DNA from: a virus
DNA: 56,376 nucleotides
Direction: 5' to 3' (one strand)
Virus record (IMG/VR): IMGVR_UViG_3300031227_000051
Span: 1-56,376 of that record
Positions 22,986-48,653 of this stretch are shown in pieces. Each line of letters starts with the position of its first letter. Position 1 is the first letter of the stretch. The notes below the pieces were generated by a model. It searched no databases. It had not been told where the DNA came from and was given only the letters and a program-made list of their open reading frames with translations. Made by a program: the position numbers and the translations under genes.

Positions 22986-23007
22986 AATTAATGCAAAAGG
23001 AGTTGTG

Positions 23008-30102: not shown

Positions 30103-30111
30103 GAGATAATT

Positions 30112-30879: not shown

Positions 30880-30892
30880 AAAGAGGCAAATT

Positions 30893-32231: not shown

Positions 32232-32252
32232 TTAAATAAAAAAGGAAAGAGA

Positions 32253-32615: not shown

Positions 32616-32635
32616 GATTAAAAATTGGAGACTAA

Positions 32636-33007: not shown

Positions 33008-33008
33008 T

Positions 33009-33299: not shown

Positions 33300-33365
33300 T
33301 AGGTACAAGTATGAGAAAAGATGAATTGATGAAGATTATTGACTAGTGTTTCTAAGGAGTATACC

Positions 33366-33536
33366 ATGAAAAAAAGCGAATTAAAGCGTATAATAAAAGA
33401 AGAGATGGAAAAGGAAGAACGTCAATTCGCTCAAAACCGATCTATGAATGAAAACCTGAGATATAATATTTATGGAGAAGTTGTAGTGTCTATAAAAGTC
33501 GTAACCGAAAGTATAGATAGTATACTTGAATTTTAA
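33366..33536 (+). CDS. Small protein with YNIYGE motif, 56 aa
   Basis: AAGGAG before ATG 33366. Charged helical N-terminus (KRIIKEEMEKEERQFAQ) then RYNIYGEVVVSIKV. Member of the dispersed IYG-motif group. Confidence 0.68.
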   Translation: MKKSELKRIIKEEMEKEERQFAQNRSMNENLRYNIYGEVVVSIKVVTESIDSILEF

Positions 33537-33571
33537 AAACATTTCGAAGACAACATTTTTAAAGGAGAATA

Positions 33572-33781
33572 ATGATGAATAACTTTGCCGAAATGAATAG
33601 AGTTGGGTGCAGAAGAAGAACAGGCGCACAAATGTTTACACCAAAGTTTACATCAAAACAAAGATATGATATTTACGGAAATATTATAATGTCATCTAGT
33701 AAAAGTTCGTGGGAAGAATATGTCAAAAATTACAAAATCTCTTTAAAAAATTGGATAGAAAATTGGAAATCAGATATGTAA
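33572..33781 (+). CDS. Small protein with YDIYGN motif, 69 aa
   Basis: AAAGGAGA before ATG 33572/33575. Basic N-terminus, KQRYDIYGNIIMSSS in the middle, Trp-rich C-terminal helix. IYG-motif group. Confidence 0.68.
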   Translation: MMNNFAEMNRVGCRRRTGAQMFTPKFTSKQRYDIYGNIIMSSSKSSWEEYVKNYKISLKNWIENWKSDM

Positions 33782-33861
33782 AAAATAAAAAATCTTGATA
33801 GTTTTTCGTCATATATATACTAAAGCATAGAGGTGTAAGCGTCACTTACATTTTCTTATAT

Positions 33862-33935
33862 GTCTCTGTAGCATAACTGGATAATGCTTTGGTTTTCTAA
33901 ACCAAGAATCGCAGATTCGAGTCCTGTCAGAGATA
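33862..33935 (+). tRNA. tRNA-Arg(UCU), copy 2
   Basis: GTCTCTG/CAGAGAT, D stem GCAT/ATGC, anticodon stem TTGGT/ACCAA with loop TTTCTAA; CCA not encoded (ATCA). Preceded at 33793-33826 by CTTGATAGTTTTT..TATATATACTAA, similar to the sequences before the GIY-YIG genes. Confidence 0.85.
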
Positions 33936-33960
33936 TCAAAAATTTAATATTGGAGTAATA

Positions 33961-34809
33961 ATGATTAAAGAAGGAAATATCAGATTTCTAAAGACCGCCG
34001 GAAATAAATTTAAGTATATAGATGTAATTAGAAAAGAGATCGACAAGATCGAAAAGCCTTACGTATATGTGGAGCCATTTTTAGGTTCTGGCTCTATATT
34101 AATTAACTGTATTGATGATGATATTATATCTTATGGATTTGATTCTAACGAAAATATAATTAATATATTTAAACATTTCAAAGATATTAATTACGAGGAA
34201 TTAGAACATTTTTACAATACTTACGTTTTAAAATTTGGCAACATAGGAAAAGAAAAGGAAGCATATTATTCATATAGAAATGAAATATATAACAAATTAT
34301 ACTACAAAAATAATAACAAATATTCATCTATGGCATTATATTATTTAATACGAAGTTGCATAAATTCAATGATAAGATTTGGTCCTAATGGTTTCAATCA
34401 GTCATTTGGAAATCGTGGGAGAGATATATATTTAACAAAAGAAAGTCTTGATTTCTATAAAGAAAAAACAAAAAGTGCAAAATTTAGCTGTATTAATTTC
34501 TTTGATATACCAACAAAGCTGTTCGATAATAAAAATATATTATGGTTTCTGGATCCTCCATATGTGGGAATGGGTCATGTTTCTTATCAAGATAACTTTT
34601 CAAAAGATAATTTTGAAAAATTTATTGACATAATCACAAATAAAATAAAGGGAAAGATTTTATATACAGATACCTGGAATGAGATTCATGATATAAAATT
34701 AAAGAATTGGAGAAGAATAGTTTTAAATAAAAGACTATTAACAATATCCCCTCAATTGAAAAAAAAGAATGTAGCTGGTAAAGTAGAATATTTATACTGT
34801 AATTTTTAA
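33961..34809 (+). CDS. Dam-type DNA adenine methyltransferase
   Basis: D12-class N6-adenine methyltransferase, 282 aa. FLKTAGNKFKYIDVI (N-terminal motif X region), YVEPFLGSGSILIN (motif I, SAM binding, about residues 36-49), target-recognition region with RFGPNGFNQSFG, and catalytic FLDPPYVG (motif IV, DPPY, about 196-203). SD GGAGTAA. Methylates DNA, probably GATC-like sites; no partner nuclease is present. All Trp codons are TGG. Confidence 0.9.
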   Translation: MIKEGNIRFLKTAGNKFKYIDVIRKEIDKIEKPYVYVEPFLGSGSILINCIDDDIISYGFDSNENIINIFKHFKDINYEELEHFYNTYVLKFGNIGKEKEAYYSYRNEIYNKLYYKNNNKYSSMALYYLIRSCINSMIRFGPNGFNQSFGNRGRDIYLTKESLDFYKEKTKSAKFSCINFFDIPTKLFDNKNILWFLDPPYVGMGHVSYQDNFSKDNFEKFIDIITNKIKGKILYTDTWNEIHDIKLKNWRRIVLNKRLLTISPQLKKKNVAGKVEYLYCNF

Positions 34810-34813
34810 TAAG

Positions 34814-34841
34814 TTGACAAAATAAGACAAAAGAATAGAGT
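34814..34841 (+). promoter_or_regulatory. Probable promoter, TTGACA-16-TAGAGT
   Basis: TTGACA 34814-34819; the -10 (TAGAGT 34836-34841) is weak. Downstream ATCATAAAGAAA resembles the other promoters. Confidence 0.5.
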
Positions 34842-34937
34842 TGTATCATAAAGAAACAAGCTCGATGTGATTAACATAAAACTTGCATAGTAATATAGAG
34901 CTTGTTACTATGCAAATAAAAAGTTAAGGAGAATGAT

Positions 34938-35183
34938 ATGAGTAGAAGTTTTAAGAAAACAGCAGGATTTACCTATGAAAGTTCAACCCACATTAATTTT
35001 GAAAAAAGACAAGCAAATAAGAAAGTAAGAAGAGCAAATGAAGTTCCGAGTGGAAGAGCATACAAAAAATTATTTGATACGTGGAATATTAGAGATACGA
35101 ATCATCGCTACTACTCTGAAGCTCAGGTCAGAGAATACGTTGAAAAGTATAATGGCAAAAAATACAAAATGCTTATAAAATAA
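34938..35183 (+). CDS. Conserved basic phage protein, 81 aa
   Basis: Starts MSRSFKKTAGF, with RRANEVPSGRAYKKLFDTW in the middle; strongly basic. The pattern recurs in small phage proteins with an 'R.yKkl..sW.I.D' core, function unknown. SD AAGGAGA. Confidence 0.7.
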   Translation: MSRSFKKTAGFTYESSTHINFEKRQANKKVRRANEVPSGRAYKKLFDTWNIRDTNHRYYSEAQVREYVEKYNGKKYKMLIK

Positions 35184-35222
35184 TTTGATAATAAATACAA
35201 AGGTTTTTTATCATTTTTAGCG

Positions 35223-35256
35223 AAAGACACATTAGAAATAATGTGTCTTTTTTTGT
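35223..35256 (+). terminator. Rho-independent terminator
   Basis: AAAGACACATTA/TAATGTGTCTTT with a T-run, immediately before the next promoter. Confidence 0.85.
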
Positions 35257-35268
35257 ATTTAAATAATC

Positions 35269-35296
35269 TTGACAAAATAAGATAAAAGAATATTGT
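35269..35296 (+). promoter_or_regulatory. Promoter, TTGACA-16-TATTGT
   Basis: TTGACA 35269-35274, TATTGT 35291-35296, then ATAGAGTGAAA; drives the DNA glycosylase unit. Confidence 0.8.
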
Positions 35297-35332
35297 TGAA
35301 TTATAGAGTGAAAAAGAAAAGGAGAGATAAAG

Positions 35333-35593
35333 ATGGAAAAGGGAAAAGTTATTTATTTTTCGGATGTGTCTGATAGTGGTGCTTATCAGGTAATAGCGGA
35401 GAAAATCGTAGTTGAAGATAGATATGAAAAGAAGACAGTTTATTCCGGTAGAGAGTGCCATTGTTTTGAAGATTCGAGAGGTCATTATCGAGAACTTCCG
35501 ACTTATTTATGTTTTGAGAATTTAAATGATTTATTTAAAGAGATAGAAAATTCGTTTAATGGAAATTTGACTACATCTCCCTATATGTGGTAA
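35333..35593 (+). CDS. Hypothetical protein, 86 aa
   Basis: SD AAGGAGAG. Beta-rich N-terminus with CHCFEDSRGHYREL in the middle. Overlaps nothing; the next ATG is 5 nt after its stop. Family not recognised. Confidence 0.7.
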   Translation: MEKGKVIYFSDVSDSGAYQVIAEKIVVEDRYEKKTVYSGRECHCFEDSRGHYRELPTYLCFENLNDLFKEIENSFNGNLTTSPYMW

Positions 35594-35598
35594 TTAAA

Positions 35599-36048
35599 AT
35601 GCAAACATTTTTAATTAGTGAAAATCCAGAAGAAACGGCAAAAATATTAGATTATCGTAGATTAGGGAAACAGAGAGTTGAGACAATTCAAATATTAAAT
35701 TCATTACTTAATCTTAATGAAAACAAGAAAGGTTGGAAAAATCACCCAGCAGTTAAAATGTGGAAAGGTTACGAATCTTATTTACTCAAAGTGTATTTAA
35801 AGGCCATTATTAATGAATGGATTAGCCGTGGCTATAAAAACGATAAATGTGCCATTAGATACAAACAATTATATAAAATATTAAAAGATAAAAAAATAAT
35901 TAAGCCTAAATGGTTTAGTGAAGATTTTTTTAATTCGCACAAATCAAATTTGATTAGAAAGAAGCCAGAATATTACAGACAATATTGGTCAGATATACCG
36001 GATAATATAGAGTATATTTGGCCAACAAAGCAATCCGAGGTGTTATAA
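35599..36048 (+). CDS. MSMEG_6728-family (pyrimidine-dimer glycosylase-like) protein
   Basis: 149 aa with the family signatures KILDYRRLGKQRVETIQIL (about 14-32), NHPAVKMWKGYE (about 48-59), and RKKPEYYRQYW..YIWP near the end. The family is annotated as a pyrimidine-dimer DNA glycosylase relative; the mechanism is not well established. Start ATG 35599 chosen over the in-frame GTG 35587. Adjacent to a uracil-DNA glycosylase, suggesting a DNA base repair unit. Confidence 0.85.
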   Translation: MQTFLISENPEETAKILDYRRLGKQRVETIQILNSLLNLNENKKGWKNHPAVKMWKGYESYLLKVYLKAIINEWISRGYKNDKCAIRYKQLYKILKDKKIIKPKWFSEDFFNSHKSNLIRKKPEYYRQYWSDIPDNIEYIWPTKQSEVL

Positions 36049-36705
36049 ATGACAAAAAAAGAGCAAATTACTTTATTAGAAGAGAAGTATAAACAGATTA
36101 GAATTAATGATGAAGCTGGTAATTATGATACGTTACAAGACATCAATCCAATAATATATGGAGGCAATATTAATGCTGATATAATGGTAATAGCCAGAGA
36201 TTTGGGTGCTGATGAAGTTAAGCAAAATCAACCTCTTATAGGTAGAGCTGGACAGTTGTTTAGAACTGTCGCTAAATATTATAATATATTTGATGATATG
36301 TATCTAACAAATTTAATTCCATACAAACCATTTAAAAATGTAGTATTTGAAAAAGAAATTAGAGAAAAATATTTAGATTTGTTGAGAGAACAAATAAGAA
36401 TAATACAACCAAAAATAATAATGACACTTGGAAAGGAATCATTAGAAACGATAAGAAATGAAAATATTAGTTCTGTTTTGAACAGAATTAAATATCTTTA
36501 CTCAAATAGATTAATTTGTGTAGATAATGTTTTGAATACTGGAATAGATGTTAAATGTTTACCTATGGCTCATCCATCATTTTTGATAAGAAAGGGTATA
36601 ACTTCTTCAAATGTGATAAGTAATAATTCTGAATATTCTCAGTTATATTTAAAACTACCCATGCGTATGGGAAGAGCGATATTAAATAAAAAGTTGACAA
36701 AATAA
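36049..36705 (+). CDS. Family 4-like uracil-DNA glycosylase
   Basis: 218 aa. Motif for uracil binding IVIARDLGADE-like (MVIARDLGADEVKQNQP, about 47-63), GRAGQLFRTVAKYY (about 67-80), YLTNLIPYKP, and the second motif AHPSFLIRK (about 178-186). The usual four iron-sulfur cysteines of family 4 are not evident, so it may be a cluster-less phage variant. Removes uracil from DNA. Starts directly after the upstream stop (TAAATG). Confidence 0.85.
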   Translation: MTKKEQITLLEEKYKQIRINDEAGNYDTLQDINPIIYGGNINADIMVIARDLGADEVKQNQPLIGRAGQLFRTVAKYYNIFDDMYLTNLIPYKPFKNVVFEKEIREKYLDLLREQIRIIQPKIIMTLGKESLETIRNENISSVLNRIKYLYSNRLICVDNVLNTGIDVKCLPMAHPSFLIRKGITSSNVISNNSEYSQLYLKLPMRMGRAILNKKLTK

Positions 36706-36721
36706 GATAAAAAGATATTAT
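36694..36721 (+). promoter_or_regulatory. Promoter, TTGACA-16-TATTAT
   Basis: TTGACA 36694-36699 inside the last codons of the UDG gene, TATTAT 36716-36721, then ATAAAGTGAAA. Confidence 0.8.
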
Positions 36722-36749
36722 TGAATCATAAAGTGAAAAGGAGATAAAG

Positions 36750-36896
36750 ATGAAGAGTAATGCAAGAGTTTATACACGAAAAAGACCGGCACACTCTGAT
36801 GATGCACATACGAAAAATAAGCGTTGGTTCAAGCAGAAGGGAAGAAAAAGTGCGAGACGTTTTTTTAAGACAGAAATGCAAAAACAGGAGATATAA
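36750..36896 (+). CDS. Hypothetical very basic protein, 48 aa
   Basis: SD AAGGAGAT, ATG 36750, ends TAA 36896, 1 nt before the next ATG. About a third Lys/Arg (RVYTRKRPAH, KQKGRKSARRFFK); probably binds nucleic acid. Confidence 0.62.
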   Translation: MKSNARVYTRKRPAHSDDAHTKNKRWFKQKGRKSARRFFKTEMQKQEI

Positions 36897-36897
36897 G

Positions 36898-37131
36898 ATG
36901 ATTAAGATTAGACTTGATAAAAATATAGAATCAGTAATTTACAGTAAAAGCGGAAATGAAAAAATAATCAAAGATAGAGATTTTAAACTGGTTGGAGATA
37001 TTTTTAGTGTTATTAATCAATTTGTCGGAATGGCTACGGCAATAGAATTTATAAACGGAGAGATTATTCTTATTAGCAAAGGTATGTTTGATAATGTAAT
37101 CTCTAATACATTATTCATACACGAATTATAA
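36898..37131 (+). CDS. Hypothetical protein, 77 aa
   Basis: AGGAGA 12 nt upstream of ATG 36898. Beta-alpha pattern, no motif recognised. Confidence 0.65.
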   Translation: MIKIRLDKNIESVIYSKSGNEKIIKDRDFKLVGDIFSVINQFVGMATAIEFINGEIILISKGMFDNVISNTLFIHEL

Positions 37132-37148
37132 AAATAGGAGTTCCAAAG

Positions 37149-37595
37149 GTGAATAAAAAGTCAAAAAAATGGGTCAAATTTATTGGCAGTTACAAAGATT
37201 TAACTCAAAAATATGGATATGTATTTCAGAAACTTTGCGCCGAAAACTATGAAACGTATAGTAAAGAAGCGTCAAGACATTCCACTAATACTGTATGGAT
37301 TTGGTCTGCCGAAAATGAAGTTGAATGGAGCAGTTTTTTTGGTTTATCATACCTTGTCTTTGAAACAGCTAAGAACTTTGTTATGCCTATTGATAAAAGC
37401 TTTGTTAGATTTATAATTGATGAAAAAGAAGAAACAATTGATAGAGTTGATATGAACAATATTACACATAAATCAATAGATGTGTGGGGCACACTTTTAC
37501 CAGGATTTAAACTATTATTATTAGACGACAAGACAATTAAATTGATAAATGAACTCTGGGATAATAATCTTATCGAAATAATTTCAAATAAATAA
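37149..37595 (+). CDS. Hypothetical protein, 148 aa, GTG start
   Basis: GTG 37149 after AGGAGTT. Mixed alpha/beta, aromatic-rich middle (NTVWIWSAENEVEWSSFFG). Family not recognised. Confidence 0.7.
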   Translation: MNKKSKKWVKFIGSYKDLTQKYGYVFQKLCAENYETYSKEASRHSTNTVWIWSAENEVEWSSFFGLSYLVFETAKNFVMPIDKSFVRFIIDEKEETIDRVDMNNITHKSIDVWGTLLPGFKLLLLDDKTIKLINELWDNNLIEIISNK

Positions 37596-37596
37596 A

Positions 37597-37624
37597 TTGA
37601 CAAAATAAGATAAAAAGATATTAT
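37597..37624 (+). promoter_or_regulatory. Promoter, TTGACA-16-TATTAT
   Basis: TTGACA 37597-37602, TATTAT 37619-37624, then ATAAAGTGAAAGAG; near copy of the promoter at 1155. Confidence 0.82.
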
Positions 37625-37664
37625 TGAATCATAAAGTGAAAGAGAAAAGAAGGAGATTTAAAAG

Positions 37665-38021
37665 ATGGCGTTTATAACAATAGAGACTCTTGATAGTGAA
37701 GAAACTTACAATGGTGTTAGTGTAGAGACATATAATCACAAAAAGAAAACCTGGAATAGTGGTGATTTTACAAAAGATTGGTATAGACTTAATCGACATA
37801 TTTATCAAAAAACTGATATATGGAAAGAGGGAGTAATGCTGTCTTCCTCTGTCGACCATTTTATTATGGATTCAGAAGACTATGAATCGAGATGGTTAAA
37901 AACAGAAAATGATGTTGCTGTTTTCGCAGAAAATTACGATTATAATGACCCAGGATTACAATTTTTTATTCCAAAAGGAACAAATCCAACCTGGGATGAA
38001 CATTGCAATAGATGCCGGTAA
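37665..38021 (+). CDS. Hypothetical acidic protein, 118 aa
   Basis: SD AAGGAGA. Trp-rich with many Asp; the C-terminus ends DEHCNRCR, a possible metal site. Family not recognised. Confidence 0.7.
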   Translation: MAFITIETLDSEETYNGVSVETYNHKKKTWNSGDFTKDWYRLNRHIYQKTDIWKEGVMLSSSVDHFIMDSEDYESRWLKTENDVAVFAENYDYNDPGLQFFIPKGTNPTWDEHCNRCR

Positions 38022-38037
38022 GTATAAAGGAGGGTAA

Positions 38038-38448
38038 ATGATTTTAGCACATTTTGATGCACAAGATTATGATATTGACAGAAGAATGTTTCAGGCATTA
38101 ATGAATGATTATCAAATTACTGCCTATTCCGTAAGAAAGGAACTCCCAGCGGTTATCACTGCTTTTGATATTATTTTTCTTGATTTTGGTGGTACACCAC
38201 ACGATGAGTATCCAAATTGGATAAATAAAATGTCGGAAGATTACCCAAACATTAAGTTCGTAATTATTACATCTTATAACAAAGAAGATTGGGAATGTGA
38301 AAGAGCATTTTATTCAATAGTGGAAAGACATAATGTAAAAATAATGAATAGAGCTAGCGAGAATATTATACGAGAACTTGAATATGCTGGATACAATCCA
38401 AAAGAGAAAAAATTAAACGTTACAATAAAAGATCCGAGAAGAGGATAA
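38038..38448 (+). CDS. Receiver-like alpha/beta protein, 136 aa
   Basis: Alternating beta/alpha with 'ITAFDIIFLDFGGTP' (Asp in the position of the phospho-acceptor) and 'IKFVIITSYNKEDWE', resembling a CheY-like receiver fold. The N-terminal acidic pair expected of true receivers is replaced by HFDAQDYDID. It may be a diverged receiver domain like the one at 43313. SD GGAGGGTAA. Confidence 0.6.
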   Translation: MILAHFDAQDYDIDRRMFQALMNDYQITAYSVRKELPAVITAFDIIFLDFGGTPHDEYPNWINKMSEDYPNIKFVIITSYNKEDWECERAFYSIVERHNVKIMNRASENIIRELEYAGYNPKEKKLNVTIKDPRRG

Positions 38449-38453
38449 TAAAA

Positions 38454-38666
38454 ATGAAAAACTTCAAAATGTTTTACGATGCATTAGAAGGACTAATGTG
38501 GAGTTGGGGCGGAAACCCGCCACCAGAAGCGGTCTGGGCATTCAATGACTTTATTGATTGGTACGAAAAGGAAACTGGAAATATTATTGGAATACGTATT
38601 GAAGATGAAGAAGAAATTCTTGAATATAAAGAAATCATGAATAGACTTTGTGATTTTGAAAAATAA
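38454..38666 (+). CDS. Hypothetical acidic protein, 70 aa
   Basis: ATG 5 nt after the upstream stop; WSWGGNPPPEAVWAFNDFIDW is distinctive and recurs in phage proteins of unknown function. Last gene of its unit. Confidence 0.7.
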   Translation: MKNFKMFYDALEGLMWSWGGNPPPEAVWAFNDFIDWYEKETGNIIGIRIEDEEEILEYKEIMNRLCDFEK

Positions 38667-38696
38667 ATTAACAGTGATTCTTTGGTAAGAATAATA

Positions 38697-38724
38697 TTGA
38701 CAAAAAACGATGAATTATTATAGT
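38697..38724 (+). promoter_or_regulatory. Promoter, TTGACA-16-TATAGT
   Basis: TTGACA 38697-38702, TATAGT 38719-38724, then ATAAAGTGAA. Confidence 0.82.
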
Positions 38725-38761
38725 AGTAATATAAAGTGAATAAAAAAAGAAGGAGCGAGTA

Positions 38762-39376
38762 ATGAGTTGTTTTTGTGCTAGCACGATATCAATTGATAAA
38801 TATGCCAAAACATTTAGATTGAAAGGCGACGATAATAATGTAACTCCTCGCTCCAATGGTTGGACAGAGTGTGAAGATATTTCTCTGTTAATTCCACTTA
38901 TTGATGGTGGTATGATAAAATTTACAAGAAGAAGTGACAAAAATATTACAGTCGAAAATATTATTAAGGAATATGCAAGAAAAATAAAAGAATTTTGCGA
39001 TCTAGAGGCTTTTCATTCCAGTAATTTAACAAAAAATTCGAAAAAGAAAATTGAAATGTATGCCGAGATAAACGAACTTCAATATGCATATCCACTTGCT
39101 CAGAATAAATTGCGTATTTTAACAAATCAATCTCTTTTAATGGGAATTAAAAAATTACAAGATGAATTTGTTGAAAAAATTATTTCTTTTAAAATCGACA
39201 ACACGATTGTTGTAATTGTGTTATTATCTACACACACTTATGTTCGTAAAAACTTAAAGTATCGCTTGTTTACCACAGTAAATATTAACGATGCAAAAAG
39301 ATATACCAGAGTTAGAGCAAACGACATAATGAAGGGTTACAGAAAAAGTTCGTGGGATATTATTATTGATACATAA
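38762..39376 (+). CDS. Hypothetical protein, 204 aa
   Basis: AAGGAG SD. Basic C-terminal half with 'IVVIVLLSTHTYVRKNLKYRLF' (mixed hydrophobic, not a clear TM). No motif recognised. Confidence 0.7.
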   Translation: MSCFCASTISIDKYAKTFRLKGDDNNVTPRSNGWTECEDISLLIPLIDGGMIKFTRRSDKNITVENIIKEYARKIKEFCDLEAFHSSNLTKNSKKKIEMYAEINELQYAYPLAQNKLRILTNQSLLMGIKKLQDEFVEKIISFKIDNTIVVIVLLSTHTYVRKNLKYRLFTTVNINDAKRYTRVRANDIMKGYRKSSWDIIIDT

Positions 39377-39464
39377 TACTGAAAGAATAATTTGTGCGAC
39401 TACTATTGTCTTTAATGCTGATCAAACAAGAGCGAATGTTTATATTAAAAACTAAGGAGATATT

Positions 39465-39788
39465 ATGGGAAATTCGGTTTCTTTTTGCACGAGAAAGGAG
39501 GAGAAGTGTTCTCATTGTGGTGAAATAATAAATACGATATTGGAAGACGAAATTGCTTTCTGAAATAAATATAATGATTTAACAATTTATATTTTTGATA
39601 ATTATTATTCTAGCGATGATAACGCATGGCAAGAATGTTTTGAAATTACAGAGGAAATAATACTTGATATAATAGACAAAGTTGAGAAAGGATTAATACC
39701 AAATGAATACGGAAGTTCATTAGAGAAATTAAATAAGGCAAAAGATATTATACTTGATGGCGAAAAAGTTTATATATATATAAGATAA
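39465..39788 (+). CDS. Hypothetical protein with Cys pair, one in-frame TGA
   Basis: 107 aa with TGA 39561-39563 read as Trp (DEIAF-W-NKYND). N-terminal KCSHCGE may be half a zinc site; the rest is acidic and helical. SD AAGGAGA. Confidence 0.65.
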
Positions 39789-39799
39789 AGGAGTATTTT

Positions 39800-39958
39800 A
39801 TGGAAGACAAGAAAGTTGTAATTAAGTTGACGCTCGAAATTAAGGCAAAAGATTATATTAAGGGATTTGCCTGTGATTTATTTGATAATTTAAATGAAAT
39901 TGGTAATGTAACACTTAACGATATTAAGTTAGTAACTAACGAAACTGACAAGAAGTAA
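39800..39958 (+). CDS. Hypothetical short protein, 52 aa
   Basis: AAAGGAG then ATG 39800 to TAA 39958. Alternating charged/hydrophobic beta pattern (KKVVIKLTLEIKAKDYIKG). The next gene begins 2 nt later. Confidence 0.6.
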   Translation: MEDKKVVIKLTLEIKAKDYIKGFACDLFDNLNEIGNVTLNDIKLVTNETDKK

Positions 39959-39960
39959 TA

Positions 39961-40185
39961 ATGGAAAAGACACTCAATAGAGACGACCCAGTCCTTGTAG
40001 AATTTAGTACTCGATTAATATCCGGCGAACCAATGAGAAAACTGTTTGAGTTTGGATATTACAATAAGGATTGGTGTATTGTTTATAAACGTGGCGAAAG
40101 AAATATGCAAGATGCTCTTGCCTTTGATCACAAAAGAGTCAGACTTGCAACAAAAGAAGATTTGGAAGAATATTGGTGGGGATAA
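39961..40185 (+). CDS. Hypothetical protein, 74 aa
   Basis: Beta-rich; 'DDPVLVEFSTRLISGEPMRKLFEFG' and a terminal 'LATKEDLEEYWWG', seen in small phage proteins of unknown function. Coupled to the preceding gene. Confidence 0.68.
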   Translation: MEKTLNRDDPVLVEFSTRLISGEPMRKLFEFGYYNKDWCIVYKRGERNMQDALAFDHKRVRLATKEDLEEYWWG

Positions 40186-40205
40186 GAAATAAAAAGATAA
40201 ATAAT

Positions 40206-40233
40206 TTGACAAAATCATCAGAAAAACTATAGT
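40206..40233 (+). promoter_or_regulatory. Promoter, TTGACA-16-TATAGT
   Basis: TTGACA 40206-40211, TATAGT 40228-40233; followed by a run of six GA dinucleotides at 40245-40257. Drives the RNA ligase unit. Confidence 0.8.
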
Positions 40234-40297
40234 AGTTTTATAAGAGAGAGAGAGAGATAATATGATGAGTTAGAGATAAAACTAAAAGGAGATGATG

Positions 40298-40468
40298 ATG
40301 AAAAAGATTCTTGTTAGCTGTTGTAAGGACTGCCCGTATTACAGATGGAATAGTGGAATGGGTTTTGATGAGGATTGGGATTCTTGTGCTAATACTGGCA
40401 AGGATATATCTGATTATCTTAACACGATACCTCCTTTCTGTAAATTGAATGATAGTGATGAAAGATAA
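40298..40468 (+). CDS. Small Cys-rich protein, 56 aa
   Basis: AAAAGGAG then ATG 40298 (40292 and 40295 also in frame). CCKDCPYYRW..CANTGKDI..PPFCKL: four or more Cys in a metal-binding arrangement common in small phage proteins ('C..C.y......C...g....i..iP..C.l'). Confidence 0.65.
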   Translation: MKKILVSCCKDCPYYRWNSGMGFDEDWDSCANTGKDISDYLNTIPPFCKLNDSDER

Positions 40469-40481
40469 TAAGGAGTAAATT

Positions 40482-41516
40482 ATGAAATTTGTAAAATACA
40501 GAAGTATGGAAAACTCTTATCGAGAAGGGTTTATGAATAAGATTGCTGAACAGGGATATACACGTTCTGCAATAGTATGGGTGGGTACCGAAAAGGTTCA
40601 TGGTGCTAATGGTGGATTATGGACGGACGGCGTTGAAGTAAAAATTTCAAAGAAGTCTCAATTTATAAGTGAATCAGAAAATTTTTATAAAGCTAATGAA
40701 ATACGTGCAAGATATGAAAGTGACATTTTATTCATACGTAACACGCTTAAAGCATGTGACCAGAATATTGTATCTATATGTGTTTGTGGTGAGATATTTG
40801 GCGGGATGTATCCCCATCCAGATGTCGAAAGAATTCCTAATGCAAGTAAAATTCAGAAAGGTATATATTACATACCTCATAATGACTTTATAGTATTTGA
40901 TATAATCACAACTGATGCTGACGGAAATGAAAAATTTCTTACCTGGAATGAAGTCAAGGAAGTTATTGCACTCACTGGATTAAAAACCGTACCTGAACTT
41001 ATTGTTGGAACATTTGACGAAGTTATGGGTTACACCAACGAGGGTCAGAGCGAAGTTCACAAGCTGTATGGTCTTCCAACAATAGAAGATAACATAATGG
41101 AAGGCGTTGTAGCAAAGCCAATTAAGACTGAATTTCTTAGAGATGATTCGAGAGTTATTGTAAAAAACAAAAACGATAAGTGGACAGAGAAAGCTCATGC
41201 ACCAAAGCGAATACGTGAAGAAGAAGAAGTAAACGAAGCAATCGGTCCTATTATCGAGGAAATTAGTACCTATGTTACTGAAAATAGATTGCGTAATGTT
41301 TTATCTCATATTGGGGAGGTTACTAGTAAAGATTTCGGAATAATAAATAAAGAATTTGTCGGTGACATTATGAAGGATTATATCATCGAAAACGGAAGCG
41401 AAGATTTGAACTCTCTTGAAAAAAGTGACAAGAAACTTATTAGTAAAAGTCTAAATAGACAAACAACTACTATGATTAGAAGTAACTTTCTAAATATCAT
41501 AGACAATGAGTTTTAA
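40482..41516 (+). CDS. Rnl2-family RNA ligase
   Basis: ATP-dependent RNA ligase that joins 3'-OH and 5'-P ends, best known for sealing nicks in duplex RNA such as cleaved tRNA. 344 aa (T4 Rnl2 is 334). Nucleotidyltransferase motifs in order: I TEKVHGANGG with Lys38; III CGEIFGGMY (about 106-114); IIIa DFIVFDI; IV MEGVVAKP (about 207-214); V VIVKNKNDKWTEK (about 225-237); helical C-terminal domain. SD AAGGAG. Confidence 0.92.
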   Translation: MKFVKYRSMENSYREGFMNKIAEQGYTRSAIVWVGTEKVHGANGGLWTDGVEVKISKKSQFISESENFYKANEIRARYESDILFIRNTLKACDQNIVSICVCGEIFGGMYPHPDVERIPNASKIQKGIYYIPHNDFIVFDIITTDADGNEKFLTWNEVKEVIALTGLKTVPELIVGTFDEVMGYTNEGQSEVHKLYGLPTIEDNIMEGVVAKPIKTEFLRDDSRVIVKNKNDKWTEKAHAPKRIREEEEVNEAIGPIIEEISTYVTENRLRNVLSHIGEVTSKDFGIINKEFVGDIMKDYIIENGSEDLNSLEKSDKKLISKSLNRQTTTMIRSNFLNIIDNEF

Positions 41517-41893
41517 TGAAAAAAATCAATGTTTGAGCAATTATAATGCCTGAAAATTATGAACTTCGTGAAAAGGTGATTATTGCATTACTAACTGGGG
41601 GAGTAGATTGGTGTGATGGAGATAGTAATTGGGACTATTTTACTGGTACTGATTGTACGATTATTTATGTGAACTATGACGACAAAAATCAAATATGCAC
41701 CGATGGTAGTGAGAAACTTAGCGAAATAGTTGCAGTAAATAGTAGAATGAGAAAGAGAACTTTTGAGTATATAAAATATCAAAAGTTCTTAGACAATCCT
41801 TCAATCATAAAGGCGTGCAAACCTAATACGAGAAAATACAAAATAGTCTCAAACAAATCGTACATTGGTAAAAGTTTAGTTTTAGATAATTAA
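41516..41893 (+). CDS. Hypothetical protein, probable TGA near N-terminus
   Basis: ATG 41516 overlaps the ligase stop (TAATG); reading TGA 41534-41536 as Trp (MKKINV-W-AIIMPENYELR) gives 125 aa. If TGA were a stop, the start would be ATG 41546, which has no SD. Acidic; 'WCDGDSNWDYF' and 'KYKIVSNKSYIG' are notable. Function unknown. Confidence 0.62.
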
Positions 41894-41909
41894 AAAATGA
41901 GCGATATAT

Positions 41910-41990
41910 ATGTGTAGTTGCGGATGTAGTGAAAACGGTAATATCATAAGAATATTAAAAATAAATGGAAACAACTCTGAGAGGTTGTAA
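41910..41990 (+). CDS. Possible 26-aa Cys-rich peptide
   Basis: ATG 41910: MCSCGCSENGNIIRILK to TAA 41990. No clear SD. Uncertain. Confidence 0.25.
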   Translation: MCSCGCSENGNIIRILKINGNNSERL

Positions 41991-42018
41991 AGAGCGATTA
42001 CAACCTTGAGAGGTTGTA
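41969..42018 (+). repeat. Two adjacent GGTTGT hairpins
   Basis: ACAAC-TCTGAGAG-GTTGT (41971-41988) and TTACAACC-TTGAGA-GGTTGTAA (about 41998-42019) share GAGAGGTTGTAAA. Both could act as weak terminators. Confidence 0.45.
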
Positions 42019-42039
42019 AAATATGTTTATCAAGAAGAA

Positions 42040-42061
42040 ACACCCTATTTCAGTAGGGTGT
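42040..42061. terminator. Bidirectional terminator
   Basis: ACACCCTA (42040-42047)/TAGGGTGT (42054-42061). A T-rich tract follows on the minus strand (TTTCTTCTT) and a weaker one on the plus strand; it sits between rightward genes and the leftward ORF whose stop touches it. Confidence 0.75.
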
Positions 42062-42234
42062 TATCTTTGAGTAGTCACTTCAAATTTGAACAAATTACGT
42101 TTGCAACCGCATTGTTCGACTAATTCCCGTCTTGTTTGAGCTTGCATCAGAGGCTTACCGGGTCTTTGCCAACATCGTCTGAACGAGGTCCGAACTCCTT
42201 CTACACTTGGCAGATGAGTCATTAAAAAAGCCAT
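42061..42234 (-). CDS. Leftward GC-rich small basic ORF, 57 aa
   Basis: The only plausible leftward gene. From ATG at 42234 (or 42222): MAFLMTHLPSVEGVRTSF.., then RRCWQRPGKPLMQAQTRREL and CGCKR. The stop meets the bidirectional terminator. GC content (about 47%) is far above that of its neighbours, and it uses CGT/CGG Arg codons unlike them. A perfect ATTCTCAT-CGTA-ATGAGAAT palindrome (42233-42252) lies at its start. Suggests recent transfer; family not recognised. Confidence 0.5.
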   Translation of the reverse strand: MAFLMTHLPSVEGVRTSFRRCWQRPGKPLMQAQTRRELVEQCGCKRNLFKFEVTTQR

Positions 42235-42314
42235 TCTCATCGTAATGAGAATTTAACTCTTTGTACATCTTGGTACATGAGCTTTATATATATATGAGTG
42301 AGTTCACTTTTGTA

Positions 42315-42342
42315 TTGACAAATTTTTGATTAATAATATTGT
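42315..42342 (+). promoter_or_regulatory. Promoter, TTGACA-16-TATTGT
   Basis: TTGACA 42315-42320, TATTGT 42337-42342; 28 nt before the next gene. Confidence 0.75.
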
Positions 42343-42369
42343 TGAAACATAAAAGAAATAGGAGACAAT

Positions 42370-42702
42370 ATGACGGATTATAATGATAACAAAGAGTTTT
42401 GAACGCAAGTTTACAATTGGGTGGCAGAGTGGTTTTATGTGTATGAAAACGCCGCATTTACTACGGAATCAATATACGAAGCTCTTATAAGGGCCGAGAT
42501 GATAGCCGAAGATTTTGAAATACCAACTTTTGAACAATTTGAGAATAACTTTCATGACTGGATAGGAAATTATAGAGATTATGACTTTGCAGACAAGTAT
42601 TTTGTTGAAACGAGTATTGGTTGGGTATATACTTCAAAGTCTCATTTATTAATGGAAAGTATAAAATTTCTTGAAGATAAATTAACAGAAATGGTATATT
42701 AA
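42370..42702 (+). CDS. Hypothetical protein, one in-frame TGA (Trp)
   Basis: TAGGAGAC then ATG 42370; TGA at residue 11 (DNKEF-W-TQVYNW) read as Trp gives 110 aa. Acidic, aromatic, helical. Without recoding the gene would lack a start with SD. Confidence 0.68.
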
Positions 42703-42728
42703 GAGAAGGAATATAAATAGGAGTTATA

Positions 42729-43067
42729 ATGATAGTTTATGGAATCGTTGAAGGTTGTGAATGGGAGGGAGAAGAGATTGGAAACGAACTTTATGTTTGT
42801 AAAAGTGATGCTATTGATGTAATAAAATCGAACACCTCGATAAACGAATGTTATGGTGGTAACGAAGATTATTGGAAAAAAGGTGGAGGTTATATTGGTG
42901 TCAGAGAATTTGAAATTCAAGACAAAACAATTAAAAATTTTGCAAAAGATAAGATTAAGGAAATTTTAACTAAGATGGGCGAATTGCAAATTAATCTTCA
43001 GAGTAAATCTGCAATTGAGTTTTATGCTAACGAAATAAATCAAAAGATAAATCAAAAGGAGAAGTAA
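42729..43067 (+). CDS. Hypothetical acidic protein, 112 aa
   Basis: AGGAGTT SD. Gly-rich middle (CYGGNEDYWKKGGGYIGV), helical C-terminus. Function unknown. Confidence 0.68.
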   Translation: MIVYGIVEGCEWEGEEIGNELYVCKSDAIDVIKSNTSINECYGGNEDYWKKGGGYIGVREFEIQDKTIKNFAKDKIKEILTKMGELQINLQSKSAIEFYANEINQKINQKEK

Positions 43068-43069
43068 GA

Positions 43070-43306
43070 ATGACAGTAGGAGATTTAAAGATTGACGAAC
43101 ATTACAAGCTAACTTATCCGAATGGCGCTGAATGTGTGGCAATTTTTAGAAGAATAATTACTTATCCCGCAGCCTGTTTACCGAGTGATTATGTATTTGA
43201 ATGGATATCGGGAGAAGATACTCTTCCTAAAACCTCAGGCATTCCAGGAATGTTTTTTCCACTAACGGCCGGAATTTTAAATTATGTAACTATAACAAAG
43301 GTTTAA
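43070..43306 (+). CDS. Hypothetical beta-rich protein, 78 aa
   Basis: AAGGAGAAG SD overlapping the upstream stop. Compact, few charges; no motif recognised. Confidence 0.68.
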   Translation: MTVGDLKIDEHYKLTYPNGAECVAIFRRIITYPAACLPSDYVFEWISGEDTLPKTSGIPGMFFPLTAGILNYVTITKV

Positions 43307-43312
43307 TTAAAA

Positions 43313-43672
43313 ATGATTAAAATATTTATATTAGAGGATGATGATAATAGAATAAGACAGTTTCGTAAGAATTTTACAAATGCTGAACTTACTATTACAA
43401 AAAATAGCAAAGATGCTATAAAAATATTACGGAAACAACTTCCGTATGACTATTTATTCTTAGATCACGACTTGGGTGATAAACGGATGACTCGAAGTGA
43501 TGAAAATACGGGATATGAAGTGGCTCAATGGTTAAGCAAAAACGCATTGAAAAAACCGAAATTAGGATTATACATTCATTCTTTAAACACGCCTGGTGCC
43601 AAAAACATGCGTGGAGTACTTGGGTATGGATCACTTGTTCCATTTGTTTGGCAAAAAGTTATAAGATTTTAA
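43313..43672 (+). CDS. Cyclic-phosphate-processing receiver-domain protein
   Basis: 119 aa, stand-alone receiver-like domain: FILEDDDNRIRQF, 'DYLFLDHDLGDKRM', NTGYEVAQWL and 'LYIHSLNTPGAKNM'. The LDHDLG and HSxNxxG-xxxM features are those of the receiver domain predicted (Burroughs and Aravind) to process cyclic phosphates in RNA repair operons. It lies just before the tmRNA and near RNA ligase genes, consistent with RNA-end processing. Confidence 0.8.
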   Translation: MIKIFILEDDDNRIRQFRKNFTNAELTITKNSKDAIKILRKQLPYDYLFLDHDLGDKRMTRSDENTGYEVAQWLSKNALKKPKLGLYIHSLNTPGAKNMRGVLGYGSLVPFVWQKVIRF

Positions 43673-43682
43673 AAATTAATTT

Positions 43683-44042
43683 GGGAGTGAAAAGGTATCG
43701 ACAGTGAGTCTTTCCTTAAACAATTCACATCATGTCTGCAACAAACATGTAAAACTATGTTGTAATTTTTCAAATGGCGAAAGTCTATTAATGGCGGCGT
43801 AAGCCTCTCCTAATGTAATGGCTATTCTTTCTCTATTATAAATTAGGTCAGTATGAAGGATAATCCGTAATCACTTAATGGATGACAAGATAAAGCGTGA
43901 GAACGTAATGCAATCGACTAGGATGCTGTGTTTTGTTTGTATGTTTATTTATCACATGATATAATAAAATATACTAAGTGTGTAAAAAAGATTGTGGTAG
44001 GTTACTTGTTGGACGTGGGTTCGACTCCCACCACTTCCACCA
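43683..44042 (+). ncRNA. ssrA: tmRNA (transfer-messenger RNA)
   Basis: 5' GGGAGTG (43683-43689) pairs with CACTTCC (44032-44038), A73 and CCA encoded. The 5' part has AAGGTATCGACAG, matching the tmRNA D-loop region, and the 3' part a canonical T arm GTGGG-TTCGACT-CCCAC (44015-44031). A tag frame inside reads NGESLLMAA-stop (43773-43802), with the AA end typical of degradation tags. Rescues stalled ribosomes and tags nascent peptides. About 360 nt, normal size. The first tag codon is uncertain (TCA or AAT). Confidence 0.88.
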
Positions 44043-44071
44043 AATTAAAAAAACAAGAAAATGAGAGAAGA

Positions 44072-44218
44072 ATGGAAACCAAACCTAACAAATGACTGTA
44101 TAGGCCTTATTATGATATTTATGGTAATATTATAAGATATGCTTATACTGGTTCAAATATTATAAGATATGCTTATACTGGTTCAAATTTTGAAACATTC
44201 ATCATTCAAGTAAGTTAA
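44072..44218 (+). CDS. YDIYGN-motif peptide with duplicated segment, 48 aa
   Basis: ATG 44072 after GAGAAG; TGA at codon 8 read as Trp (TKPNK-W-LYRP). RPYYDIYGNIIRYAYTGSN followed by a second copy of 'IIRYAYTGSN' from a 30-nt tandem duplication (44144-44203). Confidence 0.58.
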
Positions 44219-44226
44219 GAGGTATC

Positions 44227-44388
44227 ATGGGACATAAAAAATCAAACATAACTTTTGATTTAGACAAAATAAAGAAAAGACTTTACGAAATGAGAAATGA
44301 AAAGTCTTTAAAATCGAGACCTTACTATGATATTTATGGCAATGTTATTAGAAAAGGGATTCACTCACAATGACTAAAACAAAAGTAA
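44227..44388 (+). CDS. YDIYGN-motif protein, 47 or 53 aa
   Basis: AAGAGG before ATG 44227. Basic helix (LDKIKKRLYEMRNEK) then RPYYDIYGNVIRKG. TGA 44371-44373 overlaps the next ATG as ATGA, the classical stop-start overlap; if TGA is Trp the protein ends five codons later at TAA 44388. The one place in the window where TGA might act as stop. Confidence 0.6.
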
Positions 44389-44561
44389 CATATATTTACT
44401 CATCTCTTCGTGACTATACTACGATTGAACATTTATTGCATTGCTATGATATTTATGGTAATAATATAATTACAATATTTAAAAATATTCCAACGAGTTA
44501 TTGTGCTCAAATAGATTTGAACGAATGAACTATATCAGATAAAGACGAAAGTGATATGTAA
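44370..44561 (+). CDS. YDIYGN-motif protein, 63 aa, one in-frame TGA
   Basis: ATG 44370 inside ATGA; HCYDIYGNNIITIFKN in the middle; TGA near the end (IDLNE-W-TISDKDESD) read as Trp. Function unknown. Confidence 0.58.
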
Positions 44562-44597
44562 ACGACATTATTTTAAAAGAGAAGGAGAAAAATAAAT

Positions 44598-44771
44598 ATG
44601 GGTACAGGCTGGCAATACGATGAAAGAAGAAAGCTATTAAAAAAAGATCACATATTTAAACATAAATATCCTAGCCATCCTAGCTATGATATTTATGACA
44701 ATGTTATGAACATTTATCGTGAGAGAGACATTTATTGTAAGGTGGAATATCTTAATGATAAATGTCAATAA
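44598..44771 (+). CDS. YDIYDN-motif protein, 57 aa
   Basis: AAGGAGAA SD, ATG 44598. PSYDIYDNVMNIYRERDIY; basic N-terminus. Fourth consecutive gene with the motif. Confidence 0.62.
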   Translation: MGTGWQYDERRKLLKKDHIFKHKYPSHPSYDIYDNVMNIYRERDIYCKVEYLNDKCQ

Positions 44772-44866
44772 TTATCACAAAGAAAATGAAAAATTGTAAT
44801 GATTGTGCAATAGACATTCGTGATGAAATATTCACAAAAAATTTATACAAAAAAGGAGATATAAAT

Positions 44867-45121
44867 ATGGTTACACAGTCAAGAAGTCTTGCTGATTATT
44901 GCATATGTCAGCCAACTACACCCACAACAATTATACAGAAGTTTCGATTACTTTTCAAAAAGAAACAATCAATAGATACAGTGGTATATAAAAATGAATT
45001 GACAGAAACAACTCATCACATTAATTATAAGATGTTAAATAACAAGAAATTTATACTTATGGATTACTATGGCGAAACAATTACATTACCTGATATTCAA
45101 ATCATATGTAAGAAGAAATAA
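44867..45121 (+). CDS. Hypothetical basic protein, 84 aa
   Basis: AAAAGGAG supports ATG 44867; the frame is open back to ATG 44762, which would add 35 residues with a CNDC pair. Basic middle (KFRLLFKKKQ). Function unknown. Confidence 0.6.
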   Translation: MVTQSRSLADYCICQPTTPTTIIQKFRLLFKKKQSIDTVVYKNELTETTHHINYKMLNNKKFILMDYYGETITLPDIQIICKKK

Positions 45122-45574
45122 ATGAAAACAATTTTTTAGATTTTGATGGTGTACTAAATAATGGGAAGTTTTTGGCGACTAATTTTTATAATTTCCCAGA
45201 TTTGATTATGAGAGAAAAGGTTGAGATATTGAATTATATCATAGACAAAACAAACGCTAACATTGTATTTTCAACATCCTGAAGGGAAGAGTTTTCTCAG
45301 CATGAACTGATTGCAATACTAGAGAGTAGGATTTAAGTATGAAGACAAATGTGTTGGAGTTACACCCATAACCTTTAATAACGAAAGAAGCTCAGAAATA
45401 AGACAATATATTGCTGAGAACTCTATTGACTACTATGTTATCTTAGATGATAATGGTGAAGAGTTATTAGAGCTTGGTGACGAAAATCAGAAGCTTTTAG
45501 TCAATTCAAACAGCGGACTCACCATGATAGATGCAGAAAATGTAATTAAAATGTTTAAAAAACAAGCTGAGTAA
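45122..45574 (+). pseudogene. HAD-family RNA repair-type gene with two frameshifts
   Basis: ATG 45122 reads MKTIF-TAG; one more T in the T6 run (45132-45137) would give MKTIFLDFDGVLNNGKF, the first HAD motif. The frame continues KTNANIVFSTS-W-REEF (TGA as Trp) to LESR, where a second 1-nt shift restores GFKYEDKCVGVTP..IRQYI..YYVILDDNGEE (HAD motif III/IV). The layout matches HAD domains of 'Swiss army knife' RNA repair proteins. Broken gene or read errors in homopolymers. Confidence 0.6.
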
Positions 45575-45587
45575 GAAATAAAAAATA

Positions 45588-45615
45588 TTGACAAAAATAC
45601 AGAAAATACTACTAT
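45588..45615 (+). promoter_or_regulatory. Promoter, TTGACA-16-TACTAT
   Basis: TTGACA 45588-45593, TACTAT 45610-45615 (TATAGT also at 45613). Confidence 0.72.
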
Positions 45616-45645
45616 AGTAATATGAATAACAAAGGGAGATAAGAA

Positions 45646-46410
45646 ATGAAAAATTATAAAGTTATAGCAGATTTTGATGAAGTAAAGAAAATGATAGATT
45701 TATTCCCAGAATTACTTCCTAGCGAAGTGTTTTTCCTTTCATTATCTGCAAGAAAGAAGTATTTAACTGAATCTGAGAGAGAAATATATAATGTTAATCG
45801 TGCCGAAATGTTTGATCGAGTTATTGTTAGAGAAAAATCCTACGAGAAATTTCATAAGATTATGAGCAGAATGGAAACAAATGTTGAAGGTTTTACAACC
45901 AAATCTGGAATGAGTTATCCAGAGTCCTGCGTTGTTACTTATATTAATATAAATCCATCAAGTATGTTAAAGGCTAATGCTGAATATATGGCTAAGATTA
46001 ATCACTATACATTTGAAATGACTCAGGCTCTTTTGAATGGGAAACGATGTGATTCAATAATGAAAAAATTCAGCAAATTAGATGTTGAGTTAATGAATTG
46101 TATTCAAAGATGTCGTGGACAAAAAAAGTTTATTGATATTGATTTTGATATTGATAAGACAAAAGAATTTGAAGTTCTCGAAAATTTTATAAATTTTATG
46201 AAAGAAAATGACATTACCTATCATGTTATAGAAACAAAAAGTGGTTATCATGTATTAATGGAACGTTCAACAATTAATTGCAATTTTTACAAGAAAGTTG
46301 CAGAATTACATGAACTTGTAAATGATGAAGTTATTGTCAACAAGAATGAAATGATACCTTGTCCAGGAACATTACAGGGTGGACATTTAGTTCGTTTCTT
46401 GGATATGTAA
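45646..46410 (+). CDS. Primase-like (archaeo-eukaryotic type) protein, 254 aa
   Basis: C-terminal half has the order expected of an AEP-type palm: KFIDIDFDIDKT (metal-binding DxD, about 161-172), VIETKSGYHVLMERS (basic S-x-H region), and NEMIPCPGTLQGGHLVRFLD. The N-terminal half is helical and unrecognised. Proteins with this core occur in phages near RNA ligases, but primase activity is not established. SD GGGAGA. Confidence 0.6.
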   Translation: MKNYKVIADFDEVKKMIDLFPELLPSEVFFLSLSARKKYLTESEREIYNVNRAEMFDRVIVREKSYEKFHKIMSRMETNVEGFTTKSGMSYPESCVVTYININPSSMLKANAEYMAKINHYTFEMTQALLNGKRCDSIMKKFSKLDVELMNCIQRCRGQKKFIDIDFDIDKTKEFEVLENFINFMKENDITYHVIETKSGYHVLMERSTINCNFYKKVAELHELVNDEVIVNKNEMIPCPGTLQGGHLVRFLDM

Positions 46411-47841: not shown

Positions 47842-48186
47842 ATGAATCATGCATATCAGAAAATTAAGGAAGAGTTAAAGACGTTAGGACTAAAGATTAG
47901 AAAGCAGAAATTAGAAAGAAAGGAAATGTGCAGAAAATATCAGGATACTTGGAAAATAGATATGGATATTGTCCATAACAAATTTGAATTTAGACATAAA
48001 CATATTGCTCGTTGTTTACTAAGTGGTCGTAGTTATGAGCAAATTGAACAACCTCGTGAGAGCAGAAAACCTAGTTGGAGAAGCATTAATGAATACAAAA
48101 GGCAATTTATCGAAAAATACGAAGCCTATACCGCAGCACAACTCTCAAAAGCAGAAGCGGAAATTCTAACTGTTTTAGGATACTAA
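47842..48186 (+). CDS. Hypothetical helical basic protein, 114 aa
   Basis: Long charged helix over residues 1-60, then 'RHIARCLLSGRSYEQIEQPRES', followed by a second helix. Reminiscent of small DNA-binding or scaffold proteins, but no family recognised. Followed by a terminator. Confidence 0.7.
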   Translation: MNHAYQKIKEELKTLGLKIRKQKLERKEMCRKYQDTWKIDMDIVHNKFEFRHKHIARCLLSGRSYEQIEQPRESRKPSWRSINEYKRQFIEKYEAYTAAQLSKAEAEILTVLGY

Positions 48187-48232: not shown

Positions 48233-48253
48233 AAATACAAAAAAGGAGAGGAT

Positions 48254-48568
48254 ATGCATGAACTAACAATGTATGTAATGGTTCGTAATGATTTACCAAA
48301 ATCATATCAGGCTGTACAAGCTGGACATTCAGTTGCCCAATTTATGCTTGAGCACAATGATACAGCAAAAGCCTGGAACAATCAAAGACTTATCTATTTA
48401 AATGTTGATACCTAGAGTGATATAGATAAAATGATTTATAAGATAAAAAAGTTAAATATTGAATATTCATATTTTAAAGAGTCTGATATTAATAATGAAA
48501 TAACTGCGATAGCAGTTATTGTTGACGAAAGCAAAAGACGCTACTTTAAAAAACTAAGATTAATATAG
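48254..48568 (+). CDS. Pth2-type peptidyl-tRNA hydrolase with in-frame TAG
   Basis: MYVMVRNDLPKSYQAVQAGHSVAQF (first part, residues 6-30) is the Pth2 signature (K/R-x-D-L.. ..GQxxAQxxHA-like); the second half (IDKMIYKIKKLNIEYSYFKE..EITAIAV) completes the fold. Codon 54 (48413-48415) is TAG, between DT and SD; the frame then runs intact to TAG 48566-48568, 104 aa in all. Pth2 frees tRNA from peptidyl-tRNA. A tRNA with CUA anticodon begins 11 nt downstream, so the TAG may be read by suppression. SD AAAAGGAGAGG. Confidence 0.78.
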
Positions 48569-48578
48569 AATAATCTTT

Positions 48579-48653
48579 CGCAGTATAGTTCAGTGGTAGA
48601 ACAATGAATTCTAAACTCATGTGTCGTAGGTTCGATTCCTACTACTGCGACCA
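48579..48653 (+). tRNA. Amber suppressor tRNA (anticodon CUA)
   Basis: CGCAGTA/TACTGCG (perfect), TA, D arm GTTC-AGTGGTA-GAAC, anticodon stem ATGAA/CTCAT, loop TTCTAAA with C34-T35-A36, variable GTGTC, T arm GTAGG-TTCGATT-CCTAC, A73, encoded CCA. The stem register is fixed by ATGA/TCAT; the 31-39 A-C mismatch also occurs in tRNA-Thr(UGU) and tRNA-Cys of this genome, where the anticodon is certain. CUA reads UAG. The charging amino acid is unknown; C1-G72 is unusual in bacteria outside tRNA-Pro. Confidence 0.85.

Follow-up and report, generated by a model that had tools for sequence, protein, structure and literature searches.

Transfer RNAs (tRNAs) with stop anticodons, together with in-frame TAG codons in phage genes, are found in phages with recoded stop codons (code 15, Lak, crAss-like), and these phages and their suppressor tRNAs are already known (PMC8346664, PMC10879173). 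The same combination occurs in the window, which denotes here the whole 56,376-base IMG/VR record IMGVR_UViG_3300031227_000051, apparently a fragment of a large phage as judged from its gene content. It carries a Pth2-like peptidyl-tRNA hydrolase gene interrupted by TAG at codon 54, with a tRNA of anticodon CUA (tRNA-CUA) directly behind it. In recoded phages, however, TAG is found in many genes, whereas here it is found in one or two linked genes and still terminates others. The arrangement, together with its relatives in other phages, is interpreted as a probable amber gate (estimated probability about 0.8): a phage cassette of a divergent Pth2-like hydrolase gene that would be fully translated only if the linked tRNA-CUA decodes UAG.

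Tracts of this puzzle have been described separately. Orphan suppressor tRNAs of standard-code jumbo phages are the same tRNAs as those considered here; the paper on phage XacN1 reported CUA tRNAs and found no target gene (PMC5852040), while the target proposed here is the HD-Pth2 gene of XacN1. A UAA-suppressor tRNA of unexplained use is present in all 51 Lak genomes (PMC8346664). Pth2 is known in jumbo phages (PMC7824862, PMC3622015), and a Pth2-like gene was noted in the tRNA arrays of cluster C mycobacteriophages (PMC5966550). The putatively gated Pth2 shares the fold and weak sequence similarity with the jumbo-phage, archaeal and human enzymes, but differs from them as a divergent EPD-type branch with a stop gate. 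Pyrrolysine genes likewise combine an in-frame TAG with a dedicated CUA tRNA; the phage CUA tRNA bodies, in contrast, are diverse, and a pyrrolysine system was rejected, as a search of 10 phage records and the record of locus L002, the incomplete phage of the window not being among them, gave no pyrrolysyl-tRNA synthetase (PylS) above the model cut-off. Theta ribozymes, which adjoin phage suppressor tRNAs (PMC10879173), also tie suppressor tRNA maturation to the expression of stop-containing genes; unlike theta-ribozyme loci, the window locus matched no known ribozyme family in Rfam. A full-text search, with most subscription papers outside its scope, found no paper linking the gated Pth2 to a suppressor tRNA. 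Decoding by suppressor tRNAs in phages is itself known; the proposed system stands apart in its layout, with one tRNA devoted to a single operon while stop codons keep their standard use in the rest of the genome.

Early TAG codons and linked tRNA-CUA in phage Pth2-like genes

Huge phages with related genes also carry nearby tRNAs with stop anticodons, and most of these relatives proved to have TAG in frame at codon 2-4 once their 5' ends were translated. A scan of IMG/VR with the motif EPD[IL]xN[QE]xTA yielded 105 stretches, from which 91 usable loci (L numbers below) were grouped into 70 clusters of Pth2-like genes; the first family-wide alignment was too diverged to serve as the scan query. 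In 41 of the 70 clusters, reading upstream from the conserved domain reaches an in-frame stop before any ATG, GTG or TTG. This stop is TAG in all 41 clusters, never TAA or TGA, and is preceded by an ATG 2-6 codons before it, which places the TAG at codon 3 (25 clusters), 4 (10), 5 (5) or 7 (1). The next base is A or G in 40 of the 41; amber suppression is favoured when a purine follows UAG. The expected share of TAG among ordinary bounding stops is 21% (225 of 1086 control open reading frames (ORFs) from the same loci). An ATG followed by a stop, with no later start, was present in only 18 of the 1086 controls, six of them with TAG (Fisher p 8e-41, a value that overstates independence because the clusters are related). 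On the tree, the supported branches require the early-TAG state to have changed four times or more. Use of UAG as a start codon was set aside, since all 41 clusters have the in-frame upstream ATG. A pattern scan of the genome collection for the early-TAG motif found nothing.

The frames, stops, linkage and their conservation are direct observations. Linkage is evident from the share of tRNA-CUA among tRNAs at increasing distance from the gene: 45 of 87 within 1 kb, 12 of 78 at 1-3 kb and 1 of 104 beyond 3 kb. Where sister genes share 70-84% identity, their CUA tRNAs share about 60-75%, close to the average for CUA tRNAs paired at random (65%). These comparisons indicate that the tRNA body turns over, with the anticodon and the place of the gene being kept, which suggests that selection has acted on the ability of the linked tRNA to decode UAG. 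From the same co-conservation we infer that tRNA-CUA is charged and decodes UAG in the host. Nearest-neighbour assignment of the CUA tRNAs to an isotype gave no consistent answer, so the inserted residue is not predicted. The near-universal U33 is replaced by C33 in 8 of the 52 nearest CUA tRNAs; those with C33 include the tRNAs of L018, L039, L048, L058, L061, L084, L088, L113 and L124. In Lak phages and LR745208 (L003, L080, L013) a UUA tRNA stands beside Pth2 instead of a CUA tRNA.

The early TAG is also present in cultured phages, namely Serratia BF (MTH*), Cronobacter GAP32 and Pectobacterium CBB (MAQ*), Salmonella Arash (ML*) and Acinetobacter ME3 (MT*), as well as in the HD-Pth2 fusion genes of Xanthomonas XacN1 and CM1 (MK*), where in XacN1 the MK-TAG lies ahead of the annotated start. 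Exactly one suppressor tRNA is encoded per genome in ME3, Arash, GAP32 and BF, at 445, 1007, 2824 and 3260 bases from the gene, respectively; in LR756511 the CUA tRNA is 8 kb away. Phage RaK2 has a Pth2 copy without the TAG and no suppressor tRNA. Pfam PF01981 scores some relatives below its cut-off (GAP32 17 bits, ME3 16 bits). Several phages with the gated gene also encode a second, canonical Pth2 without a stop, and the gated copy is therefore probably a specialised enzyme rather than the general Pth.

In one lineage Pth2 is adjoined by a gene for an HD-like protein, which is fused to Pth2 in XacN1 and CM1; its HD signature consists of phrog_14850 and, in ME3 only, an HD Pfam match below the cut-off. 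This second gene has its own early TAG in L100, L110, L095, L119, L053 and LR745206, and a TAG at codon 47 is conserved in GAP32, CBB and BF, while the frame is intact in ME3 and Arash. The resulting 46-amino-acid stump is held in PHROGs as a separate family, phrog_26054. At about 337-346 kb of LR745206, the early-TAG Pth2 and HD-like genes lie near frames weakly similar to the core of class II aminoacyl-tRNA synthetases. Frames directly upstream of Pth2 in L082, L025, L081 and L071 open with a duplicated 5' piece of Pth2 including the early TAG, followed by other sequence; those of L082 and L025 have HNH-endonuclease-like features, as if an endonuclease had invaded the gene and inherited the amber gate.

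The Pth2-like locus of the window

The version of the cassette in the window comprises the following features.

47842-48186, plus strand: ORF of 114 amino acids (ORF114) immediately upstream of Pth2; a homologue precedes Pth2 in L002 and appears fused to it in frame in L085
48197-48226, plus strand: strong RNA hairpin between ORF114 and Pth2, without a U-run on its 3' side (-18.7 kcal/mol, z -6.1 versus shuffles)
48243-48251, plus strand: Shine-Dalgarno-like sequence AAGGAGAGG ahead of the Pth2 ATG (48254)
48254-48568, plus strand: Pth2-like peptidyl-tRNA hydrolase gene; with codon 54 decoded, 104 codons and a stop (Pfam PF01981; PDB profile and fold matches to Pth2)
48413-48415, plus strand: TAG in frame at codon 54, with A as the next base (UAG-A context); the model has a helix beginning at this residue
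48566-48568, plus strand: second in-frame TAG, the gene's own terminator (checked clade members end in TAA or TGA)
48579-48653, plus strand: tRNA with anticodon CUA, C1-G72, A73, encoded CCA and a short variable loop (ARAGORN; Rfam RF00005)

An earlier note on this DNA had described a Pth2-type frame intact except for the TAG at codon 54, and this is confirmed by the sequence and by Pfam PTH2, which matches residues 5-103 of the read-through frame across the TAG (31 bits, cut-off 23, E 3e-7). An AlphaFold model with Q at codon 54 has a mean predicted local distance difference test score of 96. Its best PDB matches in Foldseek are archaeal and human Pth2 (2zv3, 1wn2, 1q7s; E 1e-5 to 1e-7), with template modelling scores of 0.7-0.8. 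The product is a predicted Pth2-like hydrolase. The full tRNA reported behind the gene is indeed a complete cloverleaf (ARAGORN call; RF00005 67 bits, cut-off 29), and the spacer from the Pth2 stop is 10 nt (48569-48578). An A31.C39 mismatch leaves its anticodon stem with 4 bp. A pattern scan of IMG/VR with the window's own tRNA found no match.

The position of the ORF114 homologue in L002 and its fusion to Pth2 in L085, homologies that were judged by eye from translations, suggest that the transcription unit is probably ORF114 - Pth2 - tRNA-CUA, with the hairpin before Pth2. A promoter and terminator scan did not call the hairpin as a terminator and found promoters at the locus no commoner than chance. 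ORF114 had no PHROG or PADLOC match, and defence models gave no match.

The window also encodes 35 tRNAs and ClpX-like, NAD ligase and RtcB-like genes. TAG and TAA are stops in this genome, and TGA is a sense codon for Trp in many genes (e.g., 15469-16347, 22951-23802, 25825-26697); the earlier note had taken TAG correctly as a terminator and overlooked the TGA recoding. In-frame TGA is sparse in the block 28786-46000. The only tRNA-Trp (24589-24662) has the anticodon CCA, despite TGA being read as Trp, and its anticodon stem is apparently 4 bp long (T27.T43 mismatch); 4-bp anticodon stems have been linked to UGA decoding (PMC13092985). Candidate in-frame stops were counted at 1/1288 for TAG, 6/2284 for TGA and 17/4109 for TAA. 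Reading TAG as sense raises the coverage of the window from 0.55 to 0.60, compared with 0.39 to 0.78 in Lak. No other window gene has a clear in-frame TAG, and use of TAG as sense in many genes, as in genome-wide recoding (code 15), was not found in the window.

The clade of the window comprises 25 tree members including the window itself (Shimodaira-Hasegawa-like approximate likelihood ratio test 96), and none has a clear early TAG. In more than half of the 24 listed clade loci a gap of 0-20 nt separates the gene from the start of a tRNA-CUA behind it; TAA or TGA terminates all the listed genes. Five of the 25 members, among them the window and the possibly recoded phage L078, have an internal TAG; the sites differ and a tRNA-CUA is near each. 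Since the clade keeps the tRNA and only these five members have the TAG, the gene-tRNA pairing is older or more stable than the stop; either the gate has been repeatedly gained and lost in this clade, or it accounts for just part of what the tRNA does. The nearest relative, L002, has a different tRNA-CUA immediately behind its Pth2 gene, which profile PF01981 missed at the sensitivity of the genome search.

The probable amber gate and competing explanations

Under the amber gate, release factor 1 would end translation after 2-4 codons in most members, and after 53 in the window, unless charged tRNA-CUA is available. Once the phage tRNA has accumulated and been charged, a fraction of ribosomes would pass the UAG, and the hydrolase, as well as the HD-like protein, would be made. 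Hydrolase level would then follow suppressor activity, while elsewhere the phage would go on using UAG as a stop; the window version would be the pth2-tRNA-CUA operon of its clade. From the conserved arrangement we infer the occurrence of suppression, its role as the gate and its purpose. The enzyme may act on peptidyl-tRNA and so sense the suppressor. The favoured, though tentative, purpose is that the hydrolase is made in proportion to suppression and either clears peptidyl-tRNAs arising from stop-codon readthrough or drop-off, or deacylates the suppressor tRNA itself, providing negative feedback.

Several observations, besides the relatedness of the clusters, weigh against this interpretation. 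Nineteen of the 25 members of the window's clade have no in-frame stop though the tRNA is present, so that no gate is visible. L002/L049, at 45% identity the nearest viral relatives, have a sense codon at the window's TAG site, codon 54 is not a conserved TAG site in relatives, and the early TAG of L002/L049 is ambiguous, that of L002 overlapping the upstream gene. The window TAG is known from one assembled sequence without reads, and TAG terminates 12 of 84 greedily chosen window ORFs, close to the roughly 14 genes counted previously. A distance of about 100 kb separates the CUA tRNAs from the gene in XacN1 and CM1, and in LR745206, where both genes have the early TAG, no CUA tRNA was found by ARAGORN, by a hand-made scan or by a search allowing introns. 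Lak and LR745208 have a nearby UUA tRNA yet no in-frame TAA in the Pth2 gene. In Mycobacterium phage IkeLoa (L014) the Pth2 start reads ATG-TAG-GTG and is ambiguous, a GTG start following right after the TAG; tRNA-CUA is the next feature there, 250 nt behind Pth2. The proposal of the earlier note that no Pth2 is made without a functioning suppressor tRNA is thus borne out in part: the family gives it strong support, through the early TAG without alternative start in 41/41 clusters and the linked CUA tRNA, whereas support from the window is weaker.

For the window alone, the codon-54 TAG could be a tolerated nonsense mutation, a dying gene or a sequencing error, with the adjacent suppressor tRNA relaxing selection and no switch involved. 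Consistent with this are the lack of conservation of the site, the TAG at the terminal codon of the same gene, and a HAD-like gene (45112-45574) apparently broken in two where the frame shifts near 45336 (assembly error or lesion), so that the assembly or the phage may carry lesions. Nevertheless, such damage seems unlikely, as TAGs recur in the gene in five clade members, in-frame TAG is not in excess elsewhere in the window, and the remaining frame is intact and its model folds well. A broader alternative is that tRNA-CUA acts mainly on host or phage terminators and forms a translation-rescue module with Pth2, the TAG being a by-product or safety catch. Pth2 has been proposed for ribosome rescue in jumbo phages (PMC7824862), a transfer-messenger RNA lies near the operon in L100, and many TAG-less members keep the adjacent tRNA; this explanation is nonetheless doubtful, since it leaves unexplained why the early stop of 41 clusters, at codon 3-5, is always TAG and why the HD-like gene has it too.

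Simple recoding of TAG as an ordinary sense codon (code 15) is highly improbable. Lak relatives are recoded, L078 and L092 may be (coverage gains of 0.17 and 0.15 with TAG as sense), and TAG also stands at a second site in L031 and LR756501; in most loci, however, the gain is close to zero (about 0-0.1, versus 0.39 in recoded Lak), TAG ends genes in the window, ME3, Arash, GAP32 and BF, and it sits at codon 3-5. Minigenes of the lambda bar type have 2-4 codons and high drop-off. The ATG-x-TAG stretch has this length and precedes a Pth2-like enzyme, and it could therefore act as a minigene freeing peptidyl-tRNA, the substrate of the enzyme, with the hydrolase made by re-initiation instead of readthrough. 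There is very little to recommend this scheme, because in 41/41 clusters the short ORF is in frame and the domain has no ATG, GTG or TTG ahead of it, the exclusive TAG and linked CUA tRNA are left unexplained, and internal TAGs are not minigenes.

Implications for stop-reading tRNAs of large phages

Stop-reading tRNAs are frequent in large phages whose code is otherwise standard, and a use for them has been lacking, as in XacN1 and Lak. Under the amber gate, CUA tRNAs of the XacN1 type would have a specific target open to experiment, and Pth2 of Lak likewise has a stop-reading tRNA (UUA) nearby. The genes concerned have been overlooked: PHROGs splits them at the TAG (phrog_26054, phrog_34073, phrog_14850), and GenBank entries truncate or omit them. 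It is reasonably likely that they represent a new class of gene control, in which standard-code phages keep a stop-anticodon tRNA to open one operon, coding for Pth2-like and HD-like proteins, via a conserved amber codon just after the start, and in which these enzymes would be the sensor and governor of suppression or tRNA charging. If the gate is real, it would be a tRNA-operated on-switch, of interest for phage biology, genome annotation and genetic-code engineering.
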